Shown one piece after another: positions 2,646 to 58,325 of a stretch of DNA of 64,000 nt. Both the position numbers and the translations under genes were made by a program. A model generated the notes under the pieces. The model saw only the letters and a program-made list of their open reading frames with translations, made no database searches and had not been told where the DNA came from. The first letter of the stretch is position 1; each line of letters opens with the position of its first letter. The stretch is taken from contig NC_091228.1 of the NCBI RefSeq assembly GCF_040958095.1, positions 12,664,340-12,728,339 on the forward strand, read 5' to 3'. The stretch comes from Procambarus clarkii (Eukaryota; Arthropoda; Malacostraca; Decapoda; Cambaridae).

Positions 2646-2650
2646 TAGGT
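2646..2650. other. target site duplication, left copy (TAGGT)
   Basis: The five bases TAGGT immediately precede the 5' LTR and recur at 12882-12886 directly after the 3' LTR. They restore the interrupted LINE endonuclease reading frame. Confidence 0.95.
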
Positions 2651-4262
2651 TGTTGGAAATTTCCAACACCGAATCCAACACTGTTGTATTCTCATTAATT
2701 ATTACTAACTCTACTAATTATTGTAGTAAGTAAAATTAACACCACGTAGAATTCTCATGTACTAATAATTTCATCTGTGCAGTAGGCTAGAATTCTCACG
2801 TCATCCGACGCCAGTATTGCGTCAGATTTTATTACAATAAACACATTATATCCAATGTATCTGAGAATTAAATTCGATTCTCTATAACCAAGGCATTCTG
2901 TATGATAATTAATTACAGATAAATTGACTTCCAACTAAGAGCCGAATAGAGCGTTAGAGTCATAGCGATTATCGAGTAATAAAAGTTAACGTCTCGAGTG
3001 AATGCCATGGGGAGACATTAATTCCTCTCCCTTATACGTTTACTATCACTAAACTGGCAAATAATAATATTTCCCTCTTCTAAATAATAAACCCGTCCAG
3101 TCTCCAACATTTCAAGCATAAATGCGAGAAATATTAATGTTCGTGACAATAACTTGTTTAATGAACGCGGGATGCGGCGTGGGTGAGGAGGACCAAGCCA
3201 GTACACGTGGAGGGAAGCTCTGAGGCAGACCTACCCGTATTGTGCTCACGAGGAGACGCCATTGCCCAGCCATCAGGGTAGACGTTATCCATCCTCAGAT
3301 GAAAGTCGCCACTGTGAGGCGTGAACAACCTCGCAGATAATATCTTCAACTGGTGCTGGTGTAACATAAGGAACCTTTTTAATCTGGTTCCTGACTACAC
3401 GTGACTGGCCAGGGAAGCGCGCCATTATCCAGGATAGGCTGAAGCCAGAGCCTGGGGACGCGAATTTCGGCAATCTTAAAACTTATACAGTGCCCATATT
3501 AGCTAAGTATCTTATCTTTATTCGATGCATCTGGTAAAGTGTAGTATAGTAGCTGGGTGATTGACCGTGACGACGCATGATAACACCAAACCACAGGTGA
3601 TTACTTATTATCACCTGTAACTCTTAAATTCTTGAATATAGAGATTCAGTAGTTTAATTAGTTGCTACTGTAAATATTTGTCTTGCAGCACGTGAGAAGA
3701 ATTCTCCCTGCCGCCTTCTCCCATGTTAATCCATCCCATTCGTCAGCCAGCCGAGCCCAGGGAATTAGAGGAAGCGTCGTGGCTTACATAAAGGAATCGT
3801 CTTTAAGCTAAGATTCTTTGTATTCATTCATGAACTTTCTGAATTACTTACATGCAGAATTCCTCAGGATTAACATGTGTTTATTGTGACTATCATTATT
3901 ATACATATAATCTATGTTCCCATTTATGGTAATGACATTAGTTTCACTATAATTCATAGGATTAGCTTATTATAATTTGGATTAGTGAACGAACCACACT
4001 AGTTCCTGGATGTACTGACTTCCAGTAATAACCCCCCAATGTAGGTGTTTGAGGGTTTGATTCATTTAATTATACAGCCCATTAATTATTTCTATGATCA
4101 TATTCTCTAGTATTTTATCCATAGTTACTGGTTCATCTAGGAATTATCTAATGATCAGAAATTCTTAGTTTTCCTCTTTACTATAAAAGCGGGTGGTCCT
4201 TCGTAATTTAATTTACTACATTAATATTTAAATAATCAGATTCAAGCCCCAAATGTCCCACA
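2651..4262 (+). repeat. 5' LTR of BEL/Pao element
   Basis: The 1612 bp repeat starts with the short palindrome-like tgttggaaatttccaaca and ends aaatgtcccaca. Compared with the 3' LTR it has 12 extra bases at 2670-2681 and one extra base near 3902. A TATAAAAG box lies 74 bp before the LTR end. Small ORFs of 60-69 codons occur in both LTRs on the minus strand but show no motif and are not called as genes. Confidence 0.95.
4182..4189 (+). promoter_or_regulatory. TATA box candidate in 5' LTR
   Basis: TATAAAAG followed by a GC-rich stretch (cgggtggtcc) is the only strong TATA match near the 3' end of the LTR. The placement implies transcription starting about 30 bp downstream and a very short R/U5 of roughly 50 bp. 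The position of the start is inferred. Confidence 0.5.
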
Positions 4263-4265
4263 TTA

Positions 4266-4282
4266 TGGTCCTTCGAACCGGA
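4266..4282 (+). other. primer binding site, tRNA-Tyr type
   Basis: Three bases after the LTR, tggtccttcgaaccgga is complementary to the 3' end of eukaryotic tRNA-Tyr (acceptor end ...TCGAAGGA plus CCA), with one mismatch over 17 positions. The tRNA comparison is from general knowledge of conserved tRNA-Tyr sequence. Confidence 0.75.
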
Positions 4283-4432
4283 TAGGCATTAAATTTATAA
4301 TTAAAATATTAATCATTAATAACTAATCCTTGTGTGATAGAAGCTAGACTAACTATTTAATTAATTGAGTCAACTAACAGTGTAACACATCAGTTAGCCT
4401 AGATCACACTAACATATTGCTACTTTCACCTC

Positions 4433-4979
4433 ATGTATAAGGTAGCTTTAGTGGGTCATAGCCAATTACCCACAATACTTAGACCTATACCTCACACAGA
4501 GGTGAGAATCTTTAGGTCACCAGGAGCAACAGCTCATAACATTTATAATAACCCCCACCCTAACACCTGCGTTAGAGTAGCCTCACCATCTAACCATTAT
4601 ATACTTAGGTGGTAATGACATCCACCCCACTTGTCATCCAGCCGAGGTGATCAAACACCTCAAAGCCATAATTTCTTCTTTCAAGCTTATCAGTGAATCG
4701 GTAGTATTCACATTAGTGGAACCTCGCCAACCAAGTCAAGATAATCGTTGGGGAGTAACCCCAGAATACTACCTGAGAGCAACTAAGTACATAAATTTCA
4801 GGCTGAAAAAACGAGTGAGATTGGATGCCACATATATCCAATTTACAGCCAGACCTTACAGACAGAACCTGACCAGAGATAGTGTACACTTGTCAGGGGA
4901 ATCTAGGTTGCATGTGGTTGACAAGTTAATTAACACCATCAACCATCACAAACGGCTGTGGCTAGCAAGCCAAACTTAA
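4433..4979 (+). pseudogene. accessory ORF with SGNH/GDSL-hydrolase-like motifs, upstream of gag
   Basis: Two frames joined by a one-base shift near 4580-4592 make a protein of about 180 residues. The first part (4433-4590) opens MYKVALVGHSQL, which fits the SGNH block I (G-[DH]-S), and has FRSPGATAHNIY, the usual second block. In the other frame, from about 4581, TIIYLGGNDIHP gives the GGND block. The end, near residue 160, reads RDSVHLS, matching the D-x-x-H block carrying catalytic Asp and His. The predicted role is a small serine hydrolase/esterase fold; activity is unproven. It sits between the primer site and gag, with no other ORF before gag. SGNH domains are known from CR1 LINE ORF1 and Ngaro/DIRS-type elements, but I know of no established BEL/Pao example. 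The frameshift makes this copy non-functional as read. Confidence 0.7.
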
Positions 4980-5524
4980 CTGTACATAATTGTTTCACCT
5001 GTGTGTGCAAGAGCACTCTTATAAAACAAAAAAAACAAAAATACAGCACAACTATACTCACCTTACTGCACCACAATAATCTTTACCCATGTTAGTAGGT
5101 AGAATTTAGGCTGAGATTGTGCTGAATTTGGTACAAGCCCAGATTAAATAATTTTATAGTTCTTAGTTAGGAATTATTACGACTAGACCTAAGTTAGTCA
5201 GTGTTGTATGTATTATATTATTTGTGCTGACCCTATACAGGGTGGGATTAAATTTTGAGATAACTCTGATTAGAGTGTCTCCATAATATTTCTCTTGTAT
5301 GCATTATTTTTGTGTATCTATTTTGTGTATTGCTGGATAATCTCCATTAACTCTGATGGTGATATAGATGAGCTAACTGGACGAGAACTAATGGTGAAGT
5401 TCAGACAGTGCACAAAATATCTAGCTATTTGTTGTTAGGTAGGTAGGTACATTCAACCTCAAGTGAGGAAAAACATAAAGTAGTCACCTTAAATTAGGCT
5501 ACATTTAATGTTACTTGTCCACTA
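4980..5524. other. BEL leader between accessory ORF and gag
   Basis: About 545 bp, AT-rich, contains a short A-rich patch (aaaacaaaaaaaacaaaaata near 5025). No ORF, hairpin or splice pair could be supported by eye. Confidence 0.6.
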
Positions 5525-7520
5525 ATGAACAAGTACCCAAGCTTCATTAGTAATACATATATTGACACTGTGAAGTTTGAACCTAAGCCCAACATGGCTA
5601 CTCCTGAGCAATTGAGGAGAACCTACATTAGCCTTAAAGGTCATTTGACCAGATTAATTAATAAGGCTGAGGGCTTAACTAAAGATACTCCCATTGACTC
5701 TTATCACTTAGAGACATCAGTTAGAGTAGCTGAACTGAAATTTGATCAAGTCAGATCTGCAGGTAAATCTTACCTTGATCTACTAAATACTGTAGAAACT
5801 GATCCTGATGAAGCAAGTCAAATTGTAGACGACATCTCCCAATATGAAGATGAGACTCAGGATATAATTATCTCAATTAGCAAAACAATCTGGATCCAAT
5901 ACCAGTAACACTGGGTCTCACTTCAATAATCAACTACCAGAGGTTCGTTTACCTACTCTAGACTTGCCTACATTTTCAGGATTAGATACAGAAAATTGGG
6001 ACAATTTTTGGACTTCCTTTGAAGTTCACATCCATAAGAAACCGTCTCTAGACAAGGTTTCTAAATTTTCATACCTACTTAGTCTTCTCACAGGAGAGGC
6101 TAAAAAGGTCATACATAACCTTACTCTTAATGAGAGTAATTATGAGGAAGCTATAAAACTCCTGAAGTTGAACTATTGCAACAAAGAGTTAAGTATAGCT
6201 ACCCTCTATTATCAATTGCTAGATCTGAATGCACCAAATAGTAGACCAGAGTCACTTCAAAGCTTCAGACTAGAAGTAGAGTCTCTAGTAAAGGCCTTAG
6301 GTACTAAAGTTAATATACCTGCTTCAGAATGGTCTATCAAGCTACTATTACAGAGGAAACTACCTCGAAATGTCTTGACAGAGCTCTGCTCACATTATAA
6401 TACCGAGTTTCTCACTCTTGACCAAATTTTCGAGGAATTGAGGATCACGGTTTACAGGTTAAAGACTCATGATAAAATTAAACCTGAGTCTAAACCAACT
6501 AGTACTGATATTTCAGTCAAACCTAAACAGACTCAGAGTAAGTCTAATAAATATAAATCCAAACCTGCTCCATCCACTGGGAAAAGAAGTGGAAACGTAG
6601 GTACATATTCGGTGTCTCCTTCAGAGATAACCAATGACTTATTTATTAAAGAGACTAAGTCTATTAATCAGAGAAAGTGTCTGTTCTGCAATCAGGGACA
6701 CACCACTTATCAATGCTCTGTTTATCCTACTTATAATGTTAGGGTTAAAAGGTTACAAGAGTTGCACAAGTGCACCAAGTGCATGGGCTCTCATGATCCC
6801 AAGAAATGTGCAGTGCAGCTACGTTCCTGCAACCGCTGTAACCAAGGTGTACACCACTACGCCTTATGTAGAAAATCTTCTACACCAACCATGACCACTG
6901 GAGAGAATTCTACTGCAGTGCAATATTGCAAAGTGCATCACGAAGTAAATGTACTTGCTACTGAGTCAGGCAATAATACTACTCTGCCTACAGCTCAACT
7001 TAAACTAATAAACCGAAGATCTAGAATTAACACTAGAGGTCTTTTTGACCAAGGTTCACAGAAAACCTTCATTACACAACAGTTGGTAGATGAGTTAAAT
7101 TTAAAACCTGCCAAAAGTGTGAGGTTAAATATTTCTGGTTTCTTGTCAAATAGTGGACCTCGTGACTACAAGGTAGTTAAAGTATTAGTAAGACTAGGAT
7201 CTTCTACTAGTCCAATCCAAGCGGTAGTAGTGGATAAGATTCCTACAGACCTACAGGTCACAGGATTAGCTCGCACTGCGAGACACCTTAAACGAAACCG
7301 CATGAGGCTAGCAGATTATAAAATAAATTCTGACTGCCTCACAGATATTGGAATACTTATAGGCGCGGATCATTATTATAAGTTTATAACTGGATGCACT
7401 AGGCAACATGGTATGAATTTGTTGTCGTCCGCAGGAGGCAAATTGCTCACAGGACCAGTGCTTTTCAGACAAGGTCCAGCGTCCACAAACCAACAATCCA
7501 ATAATGTAATTGTGGCGTGA
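5525..7520 (+). pseudogene. gag and protease region of BEL/Pao polyprotein (interrupted)
   Basis: Frame 5525-5908 gives the N-terminal part; a methionine at 5594 (MATPEQLRRTY) is the more likely start because family members start close to this point. A one-base shift near 5880-5890 leads to the frame that runs to a TGA at 7518. Domains in order: a DUF1759-like capsid region (LPTFSGLDTENWDNFWTSFE, from about 5968), CCHC-type zinc knuckles (CLFCNQGHTTYQC near 6679, then CTKCMGSHDPKKC and CNRCNQGVHHYALC), and an aspartic protease of DUF1758 type with active site FDQGSQKTFI near 7045. Gag packages the RNA and protease cuts the polyprotein. The TGA is in the same frame as the pol segment downstream, so it looks like a point mutation in a single gag-pol ORF; programmed readthrough is possible but less likely given the other lesions. 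Confidence 0.93.
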
Positions 7521-10500
7521 CTAGGCTTAGAACAGTCACCACTACGCTTCAGGGAAATATCTGAGGATATTGAGTCTGACCCACCAATACATCGTTTGAG
7601 GGATTTAGACACCTTAGGCATCATCCCTGAGCAACCAAGTCCTGATGATATGTGGACTTACCAGCAATATCTGGATACAGTTGTCTACTCAAATAAACAA
7701 TACTGGGTAAGACTCCCATGGAAGTTGGATCATCCACAACTTCCAGTGAATTATTTTATGGCAGCCTCACAATTGCAGTCTCAATTAACACGACTACAGA
7801 AGCAGCCAGACAAACTGAACATGTATCATCAACTTATCCAACAACAACTTAACAATAAGTTCATTGAAGTTGTCGAACACGATGACCGAAAAACAGGTCA
7901 TTATTTACCTCACCACGCTGTGGTGAAAGACTCATTGACAACACCTATTCGTATTGTCTTTAACTGCAGTGCTAAAGTAAAGCCAAGCAGTGTGTCTTTA
8001 AATGAATGTCTCCAAACGGGACCTAGCCTAACACAAAGGCTACATGATGTGTTGTTACGATTTCGCACAGGCATGGCATTTTTGCCTATACAGCTGATAT
8101 CAGCGAAGCCTTTCTCCGAGTAGGGTTACAGAAGGAAGAGCGTGACTACACAAAATTCCTCTGGTTTAAGGATCCACTGGATCCTAACAGTGAAGTAATC
8201 ACCTATCGTTTTGCCTCAGTATTATTTGGAGCTACGTCCTCACCGTTTCTTTTGCAAGCAACATTAGACACGCATTTGAGGAAATCAAACAGCCCTTATA
8301 AGGCAGACATTAGCGACAACTTGTATGTCGACAATTTCCAGGGGACAACTAATGATCAAGCTGATCTGGTAGAAATCTACCATGAGGCTAACCGTGAACT
8401 GTTAGGAGCCAATATGCCACTACAATCATGGGCCTCAAATAATAAACTGCTTAACCAGGTAATCGAGAAAGAATTTCCAGATTATCAGGTACCCAGTCAA
8501 TTAAAGGTTCTAGGCGTGGAATGGAACACCAGCACTGACGAGATGAATGTCAAGTCAGTGCAAACTGATAATTCAACCCTTACCATGAGAACACTGCTCT
8601 CATTTGTCAGTCAACCATTTGACCCTTTAGGCCTACTTAGTCCTATATTAATAAGGGGCAAACTCCTAATGCAGGAGTGCTGGCAGAAACATATGGGATG
8701 GGATGATCCATTACCAAGTGAGTTACAAGCCAAATGGCAAATACTCTCAACGGATTTTAATCAGTTAGGCGTTTTGAAATTTCCTCGTAATGCTTCTGGA
8801 CCAAACTTACCCACCAATTTGCACGTTTTATGCGATGCTTCTGGCAAAGCATATGGCGCAGTAGCCTATTTAGTTAACAGTGCACAATCAATTTTACTCA
8901 CATCTAAAGCAAGAGTTGCTCCCATTAAGAAGAGATCTTTACCTCAGATGGAGTTGACTGCATTGCTAGTGGGAGTAAGATTGGCTCATTGCCTGGCAAA
9001 AACACTCAATAATATCCACTTTGGTGAGATTGTAGTGTGGTCAGACAACGAGGCAGTCTTACAATGGGTAAGAAACAATAACAACAAAACTCGTTACGTC
9101 AGTAATCGCGTCAGGGAGATTCATGATTTATCTGCTGGATATAAATTTCGACATGTTCCTACTAAGGACAATCCTGCAGATTATTTATCTCGAGGGTTAA
9201 CATTAAAACAACTTGCCAAGTCTTCGCTGTGGTTCAATGGACCTTCATGGCTTGTTGGTGGTCAGTGGCCCAAACAAAAGCCACAAGTCATAGTGACATA
9301 TATCACCACTCCCATGAAAGAACCAGAACCTCAACGAACATTAGCCATTGATCCTCACCATTATTCTAACTTAAGCAAATTGTTACGAGTGACTGCACAC
9401 GTGTTTGATTTCCTTGCTAAGGTAGGAATTCGACATAAGTTTCCCAATCCTATCCTCTACTGGATCAAACGTGCACAACAAGAGACATATGGAAGTGAAT
9501 ATGAGAATCTTCCAGATAAATTAACTAAGTCTCTAGGCATCTGGTACGATGCCAACACTCATGACATACTACGATGTGGAGGACGTTTGCTACATGCAAA
9601 AATTGACTTGGACACAAAGAATCCAATTCTTCTACCTCGTCACCACATCATCACTAAACTTCTTGTCTTACACCACCATCAATATGGTACCTTACATGGT
9701 GGAGTTTTAGATACTCTCACCGACCTTAGACAAAAGTACTGGCTTCCTCAAGGTCGTCAGACTGTTAAGACAATTATTAAATCTTGTGTAATCTGTAAGA
9801 GATACGACGCTAGAGTATGTCCTTACCCAGGACCTCCACCACTCCCAGAAGAGCGAGTGGTTCATCTTCGTCCTTTCGAAACCACTGGTGTTGATTATAC
9901 AGGAGCCTTACTCCTCACTGGTAACCCAGATAATATACCAGTGAAGGCGTACATTTGTCTCTTTACGTGTGCTACAACCAGAGGCGTACACTTAGAGGTC
10001 ACTCCAGACATGAGTGCTGAAGCTTTCATTCAAGCTTTCCGCAGATTTGCTGCCCGCCGATCGTGTCCTAAATTAATGATATCGGACAACGGTTCTAATT
10101 TTGTGGCAGGAGAAAGTTGTTTGCGAGAAGTCTGGAACCACCCAGAAGTACAGTCAGTCCTACAGAGACGACAATGTCACTGGAAATTCATAGCACCGAG
10201 AGCCCCTTGGCAAGGTGGGTTCTATGAGCGAATGGTAGGCACAGTCAAGAAGTGTCTAAGGAAAACTTTACACCGACAAAAGGTCAGTTACTCAGAACTC
10301 CAAACTATTGTTGTGGAAATCGAGGCGCAAGTCAATAACCGCCCAATAACCTACCTGTCTGATGATTTCACCCAGAGAGAACCCCTGAGCCCCTCACACT
10401 TGATCCATGGAGGTCTACTGCGCCCTCTCATCCCTTTAGCCGAAGAGGACCCTGTAGACCCATCACATGTGACCAGAGGAGACTTGGTGGAAAGCTACCA

Positions 10501-10927
10501 GCATCTTTCTAGAGTTATTAACAGGTGGAATGAGGTGTGGACTCGAGAGTACCTCACAGCTCTACGAGAGTACCACTACGGAGCTTCGAGTCCTTACAAT
10601 AAGGTGCAATTAAAACCAGGAGACCTAGTACTAGTCGACAGTGATGGACCAAGGTCAGAGTGGCCTATAGGTAAAATTGTTACCATTCATCCAGATCATC
10701 AAGGTGTCCTAAGAGTAGTTAAAGTTTTATGCCGAGGCAACACTACTCTAAAAACTTTAGAGAAGCTGGTTCCCCTTGAACTGACTGAGCAAGAATATCA
10801 GCCAGATCCAGTTTCTCCAATAATTTCCGAGGGTAATAATTCTGATCCTCCAAGCAACCGCCCCACTAGAGCTGCTGCTCAACAATGTAGGCGGAATTTG
10901 CAAGCCTATTACAACTCTGAACAATAG
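7521..10927 (+). pseudogene. pol of BEL/Pao: RT, RNase H, integrase, DUF5641 (interrupted)
   Basis: The RT begins near 7700 (QYWVRLPWKL) and continues through HAVVKDS, RIVFNCSA and SLNECLQTGPSL. A one-base shift in the T-run near 8080-8086 moves the frame; the next segment reads ADISEAFLRV and, at 8324, YVDNF, the BEL form of the catalytic YxDD box. RNase H follows at about 8822 (LCDASGKAYGAV, PQMELTALL, WSDNEAVLQW). The integrase has the HHCC zinc domain (HHHQYGTLHGG...CVICKR, 9670-9800), then catalytic D near 9890 (GVDYTG), D near 10085 (ISDNGSNF) and E near 10225 (GGFYERM). The C-terminal DUF5641-like part ends at 10925. Order and length are normal for BEL/Pao. At least one frameshift plus the upstream TGA block a full polyprotein. 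Confidence 0.95.
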
Positions 10928-11282
10928 TAATTTCCTTCACATCCCACTTAGATAACTATGATGATGCTGCGATATGATATCACGTAACAAAACATTACAC
11001 GTCACTATGACCCAGGATATCCCATCACAGTAGATTCTGTTATTTTAAATTGTGTGAGTTAAAATCTATAAATATTGTGTAGGCTATAAGCAACATGTTT
11101 CATTTGACATGTAAATAGCAAGACTCAAGTTCTGGTAAGTCCTTGTTAAATCCGGGACGTTCGTTATGTGTGTACTAACATACTAACATATTAACATACG
11201 AATGTACTAATCTTAACGTCACTTCGGGATAGGTCAGTACTCCACAGTACACTACGACCCTAGAATCCTCGCCCCGGAGTTA
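10928..11282. other. BEL 3' internal region without env
   Basis: Only 355 bp separate the pol stop from the 3' LTR. No ORF of note and no membrane-protein signal. The expected polypurine tract just before the LTR is weak (cccggagtta). Confidence 0.7.
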
Positions 11283-12881
11283 TGTTGGAAATTTCCAACA
11301 CTGTTGTATTCTCATTAATTATTACTAACTCTACTAATTATTGTAGTAAGTAAAATTAACACCACGTAGAATTCTCATGTACTAATAATTTCATCTGTGC
11401 AGTAGGCTAGAATTCTCACGTCATCCGACGCCAGTATTGCGTCAGATTTTATTACAATAAACACATTATACCCAATGTATCTGAGAATTAAATTCGATTC
11501 TCTATAACCAAGGCATTCTGTATGATAATTAATTACAGATAAATTGACTTCCAACTAAGAGCCGAATAGAGCGTTAGAGTCATAGCGATTATCGAGTAAT
11601 AAAAGTTAACGTCACGAGTGAATGCCATGGGGAGACATTAATTCCTCTCCCTTATACGTTTACTATCACTAAACTGGCAAATAATAATATTTCCCTCTTC
11701 TAAATAATAAACCCGTCCAGTCTCCAACATTTCAAGCATAAATGCGAGAAATATTAATGTTCGTGACAATAACTTGTTTAATGAACGCGGGACGCGGCGT
11801 GGGTGAGGAGGACCAAGCCAGTACACGTGGAGGGAAGCTCTGAGGCAGACCTACCCGTATTGTGCTCACGAGGAGACACCATTGCCCAGCCATCAGGGTA
11901 GACGTTATCCATCCTCAGATGAAAGTCGCCACTGTGAGGCGTGAACAGCCTCGCAGATAATATCTTCAACTGGTGCTGGTGTAACATAAGGAACCTTTTT
12001 AATCTGGTTCCTGACTACACGTGACCGGTCAGGGAAGTGCGCCATTATCCAGGATAGGCTGAAGCCAGAGCCTGGGGACGCGAATTTCGGCAATCTTAAA
12101 ACTTATACAGTGCCCATATTAGCTAAGTATCTTATCTTTATTTGATGCATCTGGTAAAGTGTAGTGTAGTAGCTGGGTGATTGACCGTGACGAAGCATGA
12201 TAACACCAAACCACAGGTGATTACTTATTATCACCTGTAACTCTTAAATTCTTGAATATAGAGATTCAGTAGTTTAATTAGTTGCTACTGTAAATATTTG
12301 TCTTGCAGCACGTGAGAAGAATTCTCCCTGCCGCCTTCTCCCATGTTAATCCATCCCATTCGTCAGCCAGCCGAGCTCAGGGAATTAGAGGAAGCGTCGT
12401 GGCTTACATAAAGGAATCGTCTTTAAGCTAAGATTCTTTGTATTCATTCATGAACTTTCTGAATTACTTACATGCAGAATTCCTCAGGATTAACATGTGT
12501 TTATTGTGACTATCATTATTATACTATAATCTATGTTCCCATTTATGGTAATGACATTAGTTTCACTATAATTCATAGGATTAGCTTATTATAATTTGGA
12601 TTAGTGAACGAACCACACTAGTTCCTGGACGTACTGACTTCCAGTAATAACCCCCCAATGTAGGTGTTTGAGGGTTTGATTCATTTAATTATACAGCCCA
12701 TTAATTATTTCTATGATCATATTCTCTAGTATTTTATCCATAGTTACTGGTTCATCTAGGAATTATCTAATGATCAGAAATTCTCAGTTTCCCTCTTTAC
12801 TATAAAAGCGGGTGGTCCTTCGTAATTTAATTTACTACATTAATATTTAAATAATCAGATTCAAGCCCCAAATGTCCCACA
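11283..12881 (+). repeat. 3' LTR of BEL/Pao element
   Basis: This 1599 bp copy matches the 5' LTR throughout with about 15 substitutions seen by eye, and has the same TG...CA ends and TATAAAAG (12801-12808). It is followed by TAGGT, the right copy of the target duplication (12882-12886). Confidence 0.95.
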
Positions 12882-12886
12882 TAGGT

Positions 12887-13540
12887 CGAGTCTCGCTTGT
12901 TCATCATTTCCTCTCATCTTTGTGGGTTCTCTGACATGCTGGGTTAAAAAGATTCTAGTCACCACCTCCAATAGTTTGGCTCTCCACGTATCCTCGCCTC
13001 CATGCTGTTCCTTGTTCTCCCAGTTAATCTTACCGTGATTGAAGTCCCTCATGATGAGCAGGTGGGATCTATTTCTACAGGCAGCAGAGGCTGCCCTCTC
13101 AGTTATAGTGTTAACTGCCATGTTGTTGCTTTCATACTCTTGATTGGGTCTTCTGTCATTTGGTGAAGGGTTATATAACACTGCTACTACTATTTTCGGT
13201 CCTCCCATTGTCATGGTGCCTGCTATGTAGTCTCTGAAACCCACACAGCCCGGTATTGCCATCTCCTGAAAACTCCATTCCTTTCTCATGTGTAGGGCCA
13301 CTCCACCTCCTCCCCTACCTTCCCTCTTTTTCCTTATTACTGTGTACTCCTGGGGAAACACGGCATTCGTTATGATTCCAGAGAGTTTTGCTTCAGTGAG
13401 TCCGATTACATCTGGGTTAACTTCTTGTGCCCTTTCCCTTAGTTCACTTGTCTTGCTTGTGATCCCATAATTTTCGAGTACATTACCCTGAAACTGACTC
13501 TCTTCTGCTTCTCCTCTGGGGGGGGGGGGGGGGACCTGTG
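12887..13540 (-). pseudogene. LINE AP-type endonuclease, 5' part
   Basis: The minus-strand frame carries NPDVIGLTEAKLSG (catalytic Glu), RGGGGVALHMRKEW, and RDFNHGKINW, where the usual GDFN has become RDFN. It ends GNDEQARLDL at the BEL insertion; the frame resumes at 2645 with FTLNDPDIREIG and the SDH motif. The enzyme nicks target DNA to prime reverse transcription. The N-terminal end runs into a proline-rich stretch encoded by the G-rich tract, so the true start of ORF2 is unclear. Confidence 0.88.
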
Positions 13541-14092
13541 GGATCTGGGGTGAGCAGGAGCTGGGAGGATCTGGTATGGGGAGACTGGTGGAGGAGGAAG
13601 GGCTTGGGAGGGGTGGGGGGAGGGGGGGTAAGGGGAGTGGGTGAGAGGGGGGAAGGGGGGGTAAGGGGAGTGGGTGAGAGGGGGGAGGGTAGAGGGGGGT
13701 TGAGAGGGTTGGGGGGTGAGAGGGCGAGAAATGGAGGAGCATGGGGGGAGGGGAGGCTTGGGGGGATGGGGGAGAAGGGGGGGCAGAAAAGGGGGGAGGC
13801 GTGGGGGGGATGGGAAGGCTGAGGTGGGTGAGGAAGAGGGAAGGGTTTAGGGGAGTGCTGGAGAGAGGAAGGCTTAGATGGGGTGGGATTAGGGGGGCGG
13901 GGGAAAACGGAGGGCTTGGGGGTGGGAGAGATGGGAGGGCATGAGGAGAAGGGAGGGCTTGGGGGATGGGGGAGAAGGGAGGTCCTGGGGCGAGGGGGGA
14001 GTGGGAGGAGGGGGGTGGGTGGGGGTAGAGTGCCTTAGGTGGGTACTTAGTGGGGGCTGACAGGGGACGGGGCAGGTAGGGTATCTGTTGGG
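13516..14092. repeat. G-rich low-complexity tract (C-rich on LINE sense strand)
   Basis: About 580 bp dominated by runs of G with aggagg and gtgggg words, including an uninterrupted G run near 13518-13533. On the LINE sense strand it codes a proline-rich linker in several frames. It lies between ORF1 and the endonuclease and has probably expanded by slippage. Confidence 0.85.
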
Positions 14093-14245
14093 TAGAATGT
14101 GGGTGTGGTGCCCCACTCCCTGTGGCTATTGCACTGTTTGAGGAGGATTCCCCACTCCCCTCTGAGAATGAAGGGTTTGGGGTTGTGGTTCTCTGATTCC
14201 TTTCTCCCTGTGATCCTTCCTCGCGTCTGCTGCCTGCTTTCTCTC

Positions 14246-14958
14246 TTACCTTGTTATATCCCTCTTCAGGAATATTTTTTTGAACTTCTGTACATTTGCT
14301 AGACCGCTCTTCCTTGTTAACAGTTCCTCTTTCATGATTTCGCTCATGAAGACCACTTTTATCATCCGGTCTCTGTCCTTGTTGTACTTTCCAAGCCTGA
14401 AAACCTTTTCAACATTTTGTTCATTTCCCTCCATCCTTACCTCTTTAAGGATCTCGGTAACTATGTTTTTGTCCTTGTCTCTCCGCTCCTTTGGGCTAGT
14501 CCCTGTTTGCTCTTTAATGCCTGCTACTACTACTGCTCTTTTTATCTCTATCAGCCAGCTAGTACATCTAGCTGCTTCCTGAGAGGAGCCACTTCCATGG
14601 CAACTTCCCTAACTGCAGACCTAGCTTCAGGACTCTTTTTAAGCATTTCAGCAAATGAGAGCTGTGTTGTGGAGGTCCCCTCCACAGTAGCATTCCCATC
14701 TCCCTGAGGTACGGCTTGTGTCTGGTATTGTGGAGAAGAAGTCTCCTTCAGGCATCTTATCTCCTCCTTTGCTGCCCTTAGTTCATCCTGCAGGTAGGCT
14801 ACTGTCTCCCTCATTACCCTCAGTCCTTCACTGAATTCATCCCACATTTGCTGGAATACTCCCTTCATCCAGGCTTCCTGTTCCATTCCATCCTCTGAGT
14901 TTGTTCCAGCCGTGATTGTCATCCTGCGTTTGTCACCCCGAGTTCGTGCCCCTTCCAT
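14246..14958 (-). pseudogene. LINE ORF1 protein, coiled-coil type (frameshifted)
   Basis: The frame from ATG 14958 gives MEGARTRGDKRRMTITAG, then a helical heptad-like segment (WDEFSEGLRVMRETVAYLQDELRAAKEEIRCLKE, roughly residues 40-75), then SFAEMLKKSPEARSAV. After a frame change near 14450-14550 a second frame gives EGNEQNVEKVFRLGKYN, MIKVVFMSEIMKEELLTR and LANVQKFKKIFLKRD, resembling the RNA-binding end of CR1/L2-type ORF1 proteins. These proteins trimerise and bind LINE RNA. There is no zinc knuckle. The (GA)n array begins within 10 bp upstream of the ATG, so the 5' UTR is missing or replaced. Confidence 0.75.
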
Positions 14959-14964
14959 GTTTAC

Positions 14965-15590
<626 letters not shown>

Positions 15591-15592
15591 GG

Positions 15593-16655
15593 GATTGATT
15601 GATGATTGATAAAGATTAAGCCACCCAAGAGGTGGCACGGGCATGAATAGCCCGTAAGTGGTACAATTTTTTTTTCTCAGTATTCTGAGGTTGCATTTAA
15701 CCATCAAGCTGTTATCGCGGAGGAGGATACTGCTTCACAGTCTTTATAAGGGTGTCCAGCTGCTGGACACCTTTGTTGACCAGGAGAGTGGCTGTGTTGA
15801 TGGCTTCAGGGTGGCCACTACATGATTCAGGAACTCTTAAAGCTCTTCTAAGGTCATTGGTTGCTTCACATTCCAGAAGAGAGTGAAGTAATGGCTTTTC
15901 TGTGACAGTTTGGCAGAAGATGCACTCTCTCTGTCGGGGTTCACCAATCTCCCAGTTGCATCTGTAACCTAGACGTAGTCTATATAGCCTAACTGCTATT
16001 TCCCTGTGGATTCCTTTTGGGATATTTAACCTTTCTAATTTGGTTGCCTGAAGATACCATGTTGCAGATGGCGAACCTTCAGCTATTCTCTGGTGCAGGT
16101 AGGCTTTGTTGAAATGTGAGAGTTTTTTGGTGATGATGTTTTTTATGTTCTCTAGGCTGGGTTGAATTGTTTTATGTATCACTGGATGACGAGTTGCCAA
16201 TTTAGCAATTTCATCAGCTTTTTCATTTAATGGGATTCCAATATGGGATGGGATCCAGTTTAAAGTTATGTTGAGTCCTTTACCTTTAGCGACTGCTCCA
16301 AGATACAAAATGGTGGTAATTATTTCCACATTATCTTTCCATACTGTTTTTGTCCTAGTATTTGAAGTGCAGCTTTTGAGTCTGTGTGTATGATTGCATT
16401 TTGAGTGTTTTGTGCAATCACATATGCGAATGCCTGTTGTATGGCAAACAGCTCAGTTTGGGTTGATGATACTAGTCCTCCCAGTCTCCAATATGCCTGT
16501 ACGCTGGTCGTGCAAAGAGCAGCGCCAGCACTCTCATTTTCTGTGTCCACCGATCCGTCTGTGAAGATGTGGGTGGCTCCTGCTACTGCTATGCTATACA
16601 TTTGCTCTTCTATTATGCGCCTTAGGATTGTCGGATCATAGGCAGCTTTTTTCAT
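15593..16655 (-). pseudogene. LINE 3' end: RNase H domain and C-terminal zinc motif
   Basis: Two minus-strand frames, 16655-16320 and 16329-15712, join by a frameshift near 16325. The first has the RNase H catalytic set: HIFTDGSVDTE (Asp), STQTELFAIQQAF (Glu), IIHTDSKAALQIL (Asp); the second adds LNWIPSHIGIPLNEKADEIA (His/Asp). A C-terminal C-x2-C...H...C motif follows (CIFCQTVTEKPLLHSLLEC). This arrangement is known from I-group and some Jockey-type LINEs. The RT itself is absent, so this is a 5'-truncated insert. The sense-strand tail ends in tcaatcatcaatcaatc near 15593-15610. Confidence 0.9.
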
Positions 16656-24677: not shown

Positions 24678-24927
24678 GTTATCTTGAGGTTATCTTGAGT
24701 TGATTTCGGGGCTTTAGTGTCCCCGCGGCCCGGTCCTTGACCAGGCCTCCACCCCCAGGAAGCAGCCCGTGACAGCTGACTAACACCCAGGTACCTATTT
24801 ACTGCTAGGTAACAGGGGCGTTCAGGGTGAAAGAAACTTTGCCCATTTGTTTCTGCCTCGTGCGGGAATCGAACCCGCGCCACAGAATTACGAGTCCTGC
24901 GCGCTATCCACCAGGCTACGAGGCCCC
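24678..24927 (-). mobile_element. tRNA-derived SINE, near full length
   Basis: On the minus strand the element opens with a tRNA-like head (ggggcctcgtagcctggtgg, then box B-like gcgggttcgattcccgc, with CGT in the anticodon-loop position, Thr type). The core has caaatgggcaaagtttcttt and acctagcagtaaataggtac, then tgacgggctgcttcctggggg, and it ends in repeats of aagataacctc. About 250 bp. The head is the RNA polymerase III promoter. A related core occurs at 43740, 46990, 53004, 54663, 57903 and 62962. Confidence 0.9.
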
Positions 24928-46889: not shown

Positions 46890-47167
46890 TGTTTTCACCT
46901 AGTTGTGTTTGCGGGGGATGAGCTTTGCTCTTTCGGCCCGCCTCTCAACTGTTTACTAACTACTTTTTTTTCCACACCACACACACACACACACCCCAGG
47001 AAGCAGCCCGTGACAGCTGACTAACTCCCAGGTACCTATTTACTGCTAGGTAATAGGGGCATTCAGGGTGAAAGAAACTTTGCCCATTTGTTTCTACCTC
47101 GTGCGGGAATCGAACCCACGCCACAGAATTACGAGTCCTGCGTGCTATCCACCAGGCTACAAGGCCC
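46890..47167 (-). mobile_element. SINE with LINE-derived 3' tail, composite copy 1
   Basis: Read on the minus strand: tRNA-like head (ggggccttgtagcctggtgg), SINE core, then ggggtgtgtgtgtg, a run of A, agttagtaaacagttg, and the LINE-like tail gagaggcgggccgaaagagc. The same order occurs at 57785-58083. Confidence 0.85.
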
Positions 47168-52920: not shown

Positions 52921-53780
52921 GCGTACTCTACACTGGCAAAAGTTAGAACATCATTCAGAAACCTAAGCGAGAAGGCTTTTAGGGCACTTTTCACTGCCTA
53001 CGTTATCTTGAGGTTATCTTGAGATGATTTCAGGGCTTAGTGTCCCTGCGGCCTGGTCCTCGACCAGGCATCCACCCCCAGGAAGCAGCCCGTAGCAGCT
53101 GTCTAACACCCAGGTACCTATTCACTGCTAGGCAACAGGGGGCATCAGGGTGAAAGAAACTTTTTGCCCATTTGTCGCTGCCTCCACCGGGGATCGAACC
53201 CGGAACCTCAGGACTACGAATCCGAAGCGAAGTCCACCCAGCTGTCAGGCGCCCCATTGGTACGTGAGACCAATCTTAGAGTATGCTATGCCATCATGGA
53301 GTCCCCACCTGAAGAAACACGTAAGGAAACTGGAAGTTTGCGACGAGGCTCGTTCCAGCGTTAAGAGGAATGGGGTATGAAGAGCGCCTGAAGGAACTGA
53401 GCCTTATGACACTAGAAAAAAGAAGGGAGAAGGGGGATACGATAGGAACGTAGAAAATATTTAGGGGAATTGACAAAGTGGAAATAGATGAAATGTTCCC
53501 ACGTAATAGTTACAGAACGAGGGGACATGGGTGGAAGCTGGAAAATCAGATGAGTCACAGAGATGTTAGGAAGTATACTTCTAGCGTGAGAGTAGTGGGA
53601 AAATGGAATGTTCTTAAGGAGCAGGTTGTGGAAGCAAACTGTATTCATAATTTTAACACTAGGTATGATAGGGAAATGGGACAGAAGTCATTGCTGTAAA
53701 CAACCGATGGCTAGAAAGGCGGGATCCAAGAGTCAATACTCGATCCTGCAGGCACAAATAGGTGAGCACAAATAGGTGAG
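52921..53780 (+). pseudogene. LINE C-terminal fragment, subfamily B, split by a SINE
   Basis: 52921-53003 (gcgtactctacactggcaaa ... cactgcctacgt) and 53261-53780 (tacgtgagaccaatcttaga ... aggtgagcac) are contiguous in the copy at 59231-59825. The coding end reads RDVRKYTSSVRVVGKWNVL and MGQKSLL. A TAG, frameshifts and deletions are present. Confidence 0.9.
53004..53256 (-). mobile_element. tRNA-derived SINE inserted in LINE
   Basis: Minus-strand head ggggcgcctgacagctgggtgg and box B ccgggttcgatccccgg, CGT in the anticodon-loop position, core acctagcagtgaataggtac, end in aagataacctc repeats. The LINE word tacgt occurs on both sides, a probable target duplication. Head type matches 62962. Confidence 0.9.

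Positions 53781-57784: not shown

Positions 57785-58325
<541 letters not shown>

Follow-up and report, generated by a model that had tools for sequence, protein, structure and literature searches.

The DNA analyzed here is a 64,000-nt window of the Procambarus clarkii genome, to which all coordinates refer. It contains a BEL/Pao retrotransposon at 2651–12881, which belongs to a clade of P. clarkii BEL/Pao elements carrying a captured SGNH-hydrolase gene as the first long open frame, located between the primer-binding site and gag. The explanation considered probable is that this captured and strongly selected gene supplies a cytosolic, acyl-acting esterase that would aid Gag particles. An earlier note on this DNA had placed SGNH blocks in two adjacent frames between the primer site and gag and had proposed that this lineage acquired an esterase-like gene encoding an additional protein upstream. 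The placement was confirmed, as the frames 4433–4612 and 4581–4976 lie between the primer site (4266 onward) and gag (from approximately 5594), and the proposed capture is supported by Pfam, fold, conserved position, and selection.

In the window, the open reading frame (ORF) is broken, with VGHS and SPGAT in the first frame and GGND and DSVHLS in the second. In relatives, the intact form reads through both frames as a single ORF of 181 codons and a stop. Compared with an intact reference copy, the frame split in the window results from one inserted base; one inserted base was also found in one other of the 46 copies, L004. The motifs of the earlier note were real, whereas the two-frame arrangement was damage and DSVHLS was private to the window, the family having DGVHLS (of 61 copies, 60 have Gly at residue 150 and only the window copy has Ser). 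SGNH blocks I, II, III, and V are present in order, as is typical of the superfamily (Table 1). Across copies, the catalytic positions were nearly invariant: Ser10 in 59/60, Gly31 in 60/60, Asn61 in 60/61, and Asp149 and His152 each in 61/61. Judged from its sequence, the crayfish protein has the complete Ser-Gly-Asn-His/Asp set.

The best Pfam match of the broken second frame alone was PF13472 (E 0.011), with a score that fell short of the curated cutoff, and the intact crayfish protein scored 23.0 bits against this family, under the cutoff of 32.9 bits. Using the intact protein, three homologues of approximately 40% identity (P0123, P0124, and P0125), all from short metagenome contigs of 1.1–2.0 kb, were found in the protein database; the search with the broken second frame found no homologue there. 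P0124 (37.2 bits) and P0125 (34.5 bits) exceeded the PF13472 cutoff and P0123 (21.6 bits) did not; in the Pfam check suggested in the earlier note, the family assignment thus comes from two of the three homologues, the crayfish protein itself being below the cutoff. P0123 and P0124 aligned over 94–100% of the query, and P0125 lacked the N-terminus. The catalytic Ser was present in P0123 and P0124 (P0125 begins after it), and the Asn, Asp, and His were present in all three. Both broken frames gave no match in NCBIfam and PHROGs. No relatives were found in viral contigs searched with P0002, pol (alone or as alignment A1), or the SGNH alignment A3, nor in prokaryote contigs searched with pol or alignment A3.

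A single-sequence search of the Protein Data Bank (PDB) gave only a weak ribosomal-protein match, and the profile search gave SGNH-type matches. The match to the long interspersed nuclear element (LINE) ORF1 chain 4c1b, which we take to be ZfL2-1, was weak (E 0.96). Fold prediction with AlphaFold2 yielded a predicted template modelling score of 0.72 for the crayfish protein and 0.66 for P0124. The best 50 Foldseek rows obtained with the predicted crayfish fold were all of SGNH type, and the VIA lists agreed with the flavodoxin-like alpha/beta SGNH fold, so that the fold check suggested earlier came out in favor of the assignment. The 21 kDa protein is very basic (isoelectric point 10.2; 24 Lys/Arg vs 12 Asp/Glu), no membrane span is predicted since its largest 19-residue hydropathy is 1.38, and strand 1 of the predicted fold starts at residue 2. 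As the protein is small and basic, lacks a membrane span, and enters strand 1 at residue 2, it is most likely cytosolic.

The main copy set consisted of the window and 45 other copies fetched with the SGNH protein as the query. The leader flanked the gene on both sides in all 45, and the ORF was intact in 38 of the 46; position and intactness were what the earlier note had asked to be checked in other copies. A first look gave approximately 3,000 candidates for the SGNH gene in the genome. In a deeper search with P0124, the best 150 of 3217 candidates were scored and 16 of those 150 were fetched; a hand count found no stop in 130 of the best 150 matches. Among the 16 subfamily copies, protein identity to the intact copy L007 (SGNH frame at 1354–1896 of L007) was 89–93% in 15 and 96% in L071, and the DNA identity of the gene to the window was 81–89% (L071, 95%). 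Leader identity to the window, over partial length in some copies, was 71–80% on the 5′ side where matched (L071, 94%; no match in L058 and L061) and 73–85% on the 3′ side (L071, 96%; no match in L069). Three other origins of the ORF were rejected. A chance frame does not explain the SGNH motifs because the second frame alone matched PF13472 best and intact copies elsewhere read through both frames; a private insertion was rejected by the same position and mostly intact state in other copies, and the idea of a neighboring host gene fails because leader sequence borders the ORF on its two sides in 45 of 45 copies.

Purifying selection on the encoded protein is strong and exceeds that on the gag start in the same copies. 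In 36 intact, ungapped copies, the mean nonsynonymous and synonymous differences per site (pN and pS) were 0.0087 and 0.0982, respectively. The ratio of silent to changing variants was 25:4 for those in at least four copies, 10:6 for those in two or three copies, and 41:29 for singletons, against a neutral expectation of 2.3–3.2 changing per silent. For codons 1–49, which lie outside the search query, 9 silent and 4 changing variants occurred in at least two copies and 11 and 14 were singletons (neutral, 2.66). The mean pairwise distance was 0.034 for the ORF, compared with 0.049 and 0.048 for the two flanking parts of the leader and 0.059 and 0.051 for two parts of gag. For the subfamily copies, the ratio of nonsynonymous to synonymous rates (dN/dS) was calculated with stops skipped (4 of 15 copies have one) and L071 excluded for an extra codon. 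Compared with L005, dN/dS was 0.036–0.110 in 16 comparisons (dS 0.28–1.33), and for the pairs whose dS exceeded 0.2 (92 of 136) the ratio of means was 0.085. When the two wrong reading frames were used instead, the ratios were 1.5 and 1.8. In seven copies of a shared gag type, dN/dS was 0.260 for gag codons 1–90 and 0.094 for the SGNH gene.

Since both copy lists were ranked by SGNH similarity, five loci ranked by pol (P0003 query) were also taken; by eye, these were in neither SGNH list. SGNH sequence was present at the expected distance in all five, as two intact ORFs, two frameshifted ones, and one with only the last third inside the fetched stretch. Their dN/dS against L005 was 0.05–0.11, and the purifying selection that the earlier note had asked about was thus found in both samples.

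In a tree of approximately 480 pol residues, the window element and three other SGNH-bearing elements formed one clade (support 0.997), sister to P0003, then P0004, and then P0006. Neither of the two copies read from the P0004 family (69% pol identity) matched SGNH at E < 1; one of them, L055, has a leader of approximately 700 bases. The two copies read of the P0006 family (56% pol identity; L051 and L052) likewise gave no SGNH match. At 99–100%, these families occupy at least 44 and at least 41 places, respectively. In L051 (7514–8947) and L052, the gag-protease frame looks N-terminally shortened and pol is open; Pfam gave no DUF1759 match on the L051 gag-protease frame, and this family may rely on the Gag of another element.

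Two P0003-family copies at different sites (L078 and L079; 91% alike over 931 columns) share a deletion of the SGNH gene. Both keep SGNH codons 1–7, with the ATG in L079 and without it in L078, and then run straight into leader-like sequence. By eye, the junction lies just past the SGNH stop; the BLAST match to the 3′ leader of the window begins 44 (L079) or 118 (L078) bases into the leader-like sequence. A third copy, L077, has simple repeats in place of the leader and is uninformative on the loss. Among the best 47 of 29122 candidates scored, the P0003 family had six places above 90%. Most simply, the gene was already present in the common ancestor of P0003 and the SGNH clade and then disappeared from P0003. 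The P0003 query gave 41 places with pol at 79–80%, of which 16 had an SGNH place 2.86–3.18 kb upstream on the same strand and 3 had one 4.5–20 kb upstream; for the other 22, no SGNH place was among the best 150 matches of each SGNH list (33 rows entered, the rest by eye). The earlier note had reasoned that related BEL copies without the ORF would mark it as a private insertion or a chance frame. Such copies were found outside the clade (P0004 and P0006 without the gene, P0003 with the deletion in both readable copies) but, as far as the clade was sampled, not inside it. As the absence lies only beyond the SGNH clade, the ORF is lineage-specific rather than private.

Of the 16 subfamily copies, eight had a gag 66–85% like that of the window, six (L059, L064, L066, L067, L068, and L070) had one of 36–40%, and two had none within the stretch. 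The switch occurs just past a TTAG-GTAGGTA motif, approximately 150 bases ahead of the gag start. Pol identity to the window in these other-gag elements was 88–90% in L059 and L067 and 84% over 164 residues in L066. Since close pol and the same SGNH leader occur with divergent gag, SGNH and pol have remained together through a change of gag, and on these alignments the other-gag subfamilies represent a natural gag exchange.

In the proposed explanation, the SGNH protein would be translated from the 5′ end of the full-length RNA; between the TATA-like box and the SGNH ATG, one or two very short upstream frames are present in the two copies inspected (L005 and L009). Once in the cytosol, the protein would act as a low-turnover esterase or thioesterase whose targets are the acyl groups of membrane lipids or of acylated proteins near Gag assembly sites, and would thereby aid the assembly of Gag particles at membranes or their movement along them. 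Such help would come in trans or be peculiar to the lineage, given that the gene is gone from one sister family and that other BEL families manage without it.

Several points weigh against this explanation. Catalysis, substrate, and replication role are suggested by analogy, the protein being known from sequence and predicted fold, and the active-site loop 138–153 was modelled at a predicted local distance difference test value below 50, so that the catalytic geometry is model-limited. Ranking by SGNH similarity, as in the main copy samples, depresses dN. Only two of the five pol-ranked ORFs are intact, and these loci form one closely related group and thus amount to nearly one independent comparison; among themselves they show few differences, with ratios of 0.15–0.44 where defined, as expected if copies drift after insertion. 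The initiation context at the SGNH ORF start is weak, and the gag start lies beyond eight further ATGs after the ORF. In addition, the sister family P0003 lost the gene, and P0004 and P0006 are numerous although it is missing from the copies read, so that SGNH is dispensable for BEL elements at large. A broader statement is that the clade would have made a separately captured, catalytically complete esterase a core protein, the first to be made from its RNA, better conserved than the gag start, outlasting gag exchange, and absent through loss only from a sister family of which few copies are detectable; to this we give slightly less than an even chance. If true, lipid or acyl chemistry would be a step in LTR-retrotransposon replication (LTR, long terminal repeat), reached independently of the LINE esterases.

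The very basic charge of the protein would also suit an SGNH fold that has been retained to bind RNA or acidic lipids instead of for catalysis, as in the non-catalytic SGNH-like domain of Oskar. The ZfL2-1 esterase, too, binds negatively charged phospholipids and has low turnover, according to excerpts of PMC3905857. However, the catalytic positions are near-invariant in the crayfish copies and recur in the homologues of approximately 40% identity, and binding alone is considered rather unlikely.

Viral haemagglutinin-esterases are a precedent for an envelope-type role, in which the SGNH protein would penetrate membranes or destroy receptors for passage between cells. The ORF list holds no plus-strand frame of at least 80 aa between the end of pol (10927) and the 3′ LTR (11283), BEL/Pao elements do capture foreign envelope genes (excerpts of PMC7642597), and such a role has been discussed for the bdelloid ORF3. 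This is nevertheless quite improbable, as the start of strand 1 at residue 2 leaves no room for a signal peptide, no membrane span is predicted, and PMC5408684, in the part used here, argues likewise against an env role for its GDSL ORF. It is scarcely credible that the gene is a hitch-hiking fragment conserved only as leader sequence for packaging or translation control. Non-coding leader blocks look conserved too, but dS is approximately 1 while the amino acids hold 89–93% in 15 of 16 subfamily copies, and the ORF varies less than the leader on either side. The ratios in the other two frames and the five pol-ranked loci contradict it, and conservation as RNA only was rejected on these frame controls.

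Table 1. Coordinates of the BEL/Pao element, its SGNH gene, and its flanks in the window (RT, reverse transcriptase).
Feature	Position	Strand	Basis or remark
Target-site duplication TAGGT, left copy	2646..2650	.	Flank sequence; same 5 bp at 12882–12886
5′ LTR (TGTTGG...CCCACA)	2651..4262	+	LTR comparison; ends by eye
TATA-box-like TATAAAAG in 5′ LTR	4182..4189	+	Sequence
Primer-binding site TGGTCCTTCGAACCGGAT	4266..4283	+	Sequence
SGNH hydrolase ORF, one frameshift in window copy	4433..4979	+	Frames, Pfam, intact relatives
SGNH block I, GHS	4454..4462	+	Residues 8–10; Ser10 presumed nucleophile
SGNH block II, SPGAT	4517..4531	+	Residues 29–33; Gly31
SGNH block III, GGND	4608..4619	+	Residues 59–62; Asn61
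SGNH block V, DSVHLS here, DGVHLS in family	4878..4895	+	Residues 149–154; Asp149, His152
Leader 3′ part, non-coding, 8 ATGs	4980..5593	+	Copy alignment
Leader block, looks conserved, ends in TTAGGTAGGTA	near 5350–5455	+	By eye; some subfamilies change gag beyond
gag + protease, two frames in window copy	5594..7520	+	gag start by eye
DUF1759 in gag	~5985–6398	+	Pfam
pol, two frames in window copy: RT, Pao peptidase_A17, RNase H, integrase, DUF5641	7521..10927	+	
3′ LTR	11283..12881	+	LTR comparison; ends by eye
Target-site duplication TAGGT, right copy	12882..12886	.	Flank sequence

The element is classed as BEL/Pao by its LTRs, short target duplication, gag, and Pao-type pol, and Pfam gave PF05380 (E 8e-43) and PF03564 (E 2e-23) on the window frames. 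The 1.6 kb LTRs are identical at 1574 of 1590 aligned positions, with one gap. By eye, the left LTR has approximately 12 extra bases near its start (2652–2685) relative to the right one, beside the palindromic TGTTGGAAATTTCCAACA. As gag-protease, pol, and the leader ORF are each split over two frames, the window copy is damaged. Transcription would start approximately 30 bases beyond the TATA-like box. The primer-binding site is presumably complementary to the 3′ end of tRNA-Tyr; its exact first 11 bases occur at the same place in 13 of the 45 other copies, with changes in the remainder. The leader block near 5350–5455 appeared by eye better conserved than its surroundings among 13 aligned copies, and it is partly present in the SGNH-less P0003 family; it could be a packaging signal, a splice acceptor region, or an internal promoter. 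The TTAG ahead of GTAGGTA near 5440 is a candidate acceptor for a spliced RNA in which gag would come first. An A-rich tract at 5020–5045 follows the SGNH stop and could be a scar of capture from complementary DNA; an A-rich tract also occurs in copies that lost the gene.

The BEL element was inserted into a LINE on the minus strand and splits it into 1242–2645 and 12887–14408, with the endonuclease-like and RT frames of the LINE on either side; the LINE endonuclease match scores below its cutoff. Long simple-sequence stretches at 13400–15700 produce purely mechanical open frames, with repeats that are Pro-rich or made of Leu-Ser or Glu-Arg. On the minus strand, four predicted tRNA-Thr-like (CGT) genes, spread through the window (24854–24924, 47095–47165, 53179–53252, and 58010–58080), are perhaps copies of a tRNA-derived short interspersed nuclear element.

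Kapitonov and Jurka 2003 is reportedly the work cited for the esterase domain of the ORF1 protein (ORF1p) in CR1/L2-type and similar elements. The papers named from here on are cited from excerpts. This domain occurs in CR1/L2, RTEX, and some Penelope-like elements, and hydrolysis, phospholipid binding, and low turnover were shown for the zebrafish LINE esterase ZfL2-1 (Schneider et al. 2013, PMC3905857). The crayfish gene resembles CR1/L2-type ORF1p in being a retroelement SGNH hydrolase upstream of the polymerase gene with the catalytic set kept. However, the ZfL2-1 type is a domain of a ribonucleoprotein-forming protein with a coiled coil in a non-LTR element, whereas the crayfish protein is a stand-alone frame of 181 residues that belongs to an LTR element and precedes a true gag. 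The transposon-specific His of ZfL2-1 (H191, block III Asn minus 4; PMC3905857) corresponds to residue 57 here, which is Tyr in 60 of 61 crayfish copies and His in one, Tyr in P0123, and Trp in P0124 and P0125. For the transposon-specific Ser of ZfL2-1 (S228), the column match to residue 93 of the crayfish protein is provisional; this residue is Thr in all but one of 61 copies.

A GDSL ORF3 occurs in Vesta LTR retrotransposons and Athena elements of bdelloid rotifers (Rodriguez et al. 2017, PMC5408684), and Vesta, like the crayfish clade, is an LTR retrotransposon that gained an SGNH/GDSL frame. In Vesta, of retrovirus-like families, the frame is named after gag (ORF1) and pol (ORF2), its position being deduced from this name, whereas the crayfish frame lies ahead of gag in BEL/Pao. 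Intragenomic evolution was found there not to depart significantly from neutrality (PMC5408684), in contrast to the strong selection on the crayfish ORF. Ngaro-like elements also have an extra SGNH frame, but with a tyrosine recombinase, split repeats, and the SGNH frame after the recombinase (PMC9210276), whereas the crayfish frame lies upstream of gag.

Otherwise the crayfish element resembles BEL/Pao as surveyed by de la Chaux and Wagner 2011 (PMC3118150), with LTRs, a 5-bp duplication, gag with DUF1759, Pao peptidase_A17, RT, RNase H, and integrase. The words esterase and hydrolase do not occur in the excerpts of that survey, and the captured genes named for other BEL/Pao elements in those of PMC7642597 are env or a chuvirus glycoprotein, none an esterase, unlike the esterase-like gene of the crayfish clade. 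The earlier note knew of no described BEL/Pao member with an SGNH ORF; likewise, among the literature matches listed, mostly open-access papers with Repbase outside the scope, no title or abstract described a BEL/Pao esterase. SGNH esterases are known from LINEs, Penelope-like elements, Ngaro, and rotifer LTR elements, and in the portions of this literature used here their benefit to the element is unsettled. With approximately 3,000 candidates, selection, intact copies, a gene-deleted sister family, and gag-swapped subfamilies, the crayfish clade makes the use of an esterase to a retrotransposon accessible to direct comparison and to enzyme work. The SGNH gene in BEL/Pao is a new variation on the known habit of retroelements of picking up SGNH esterases.
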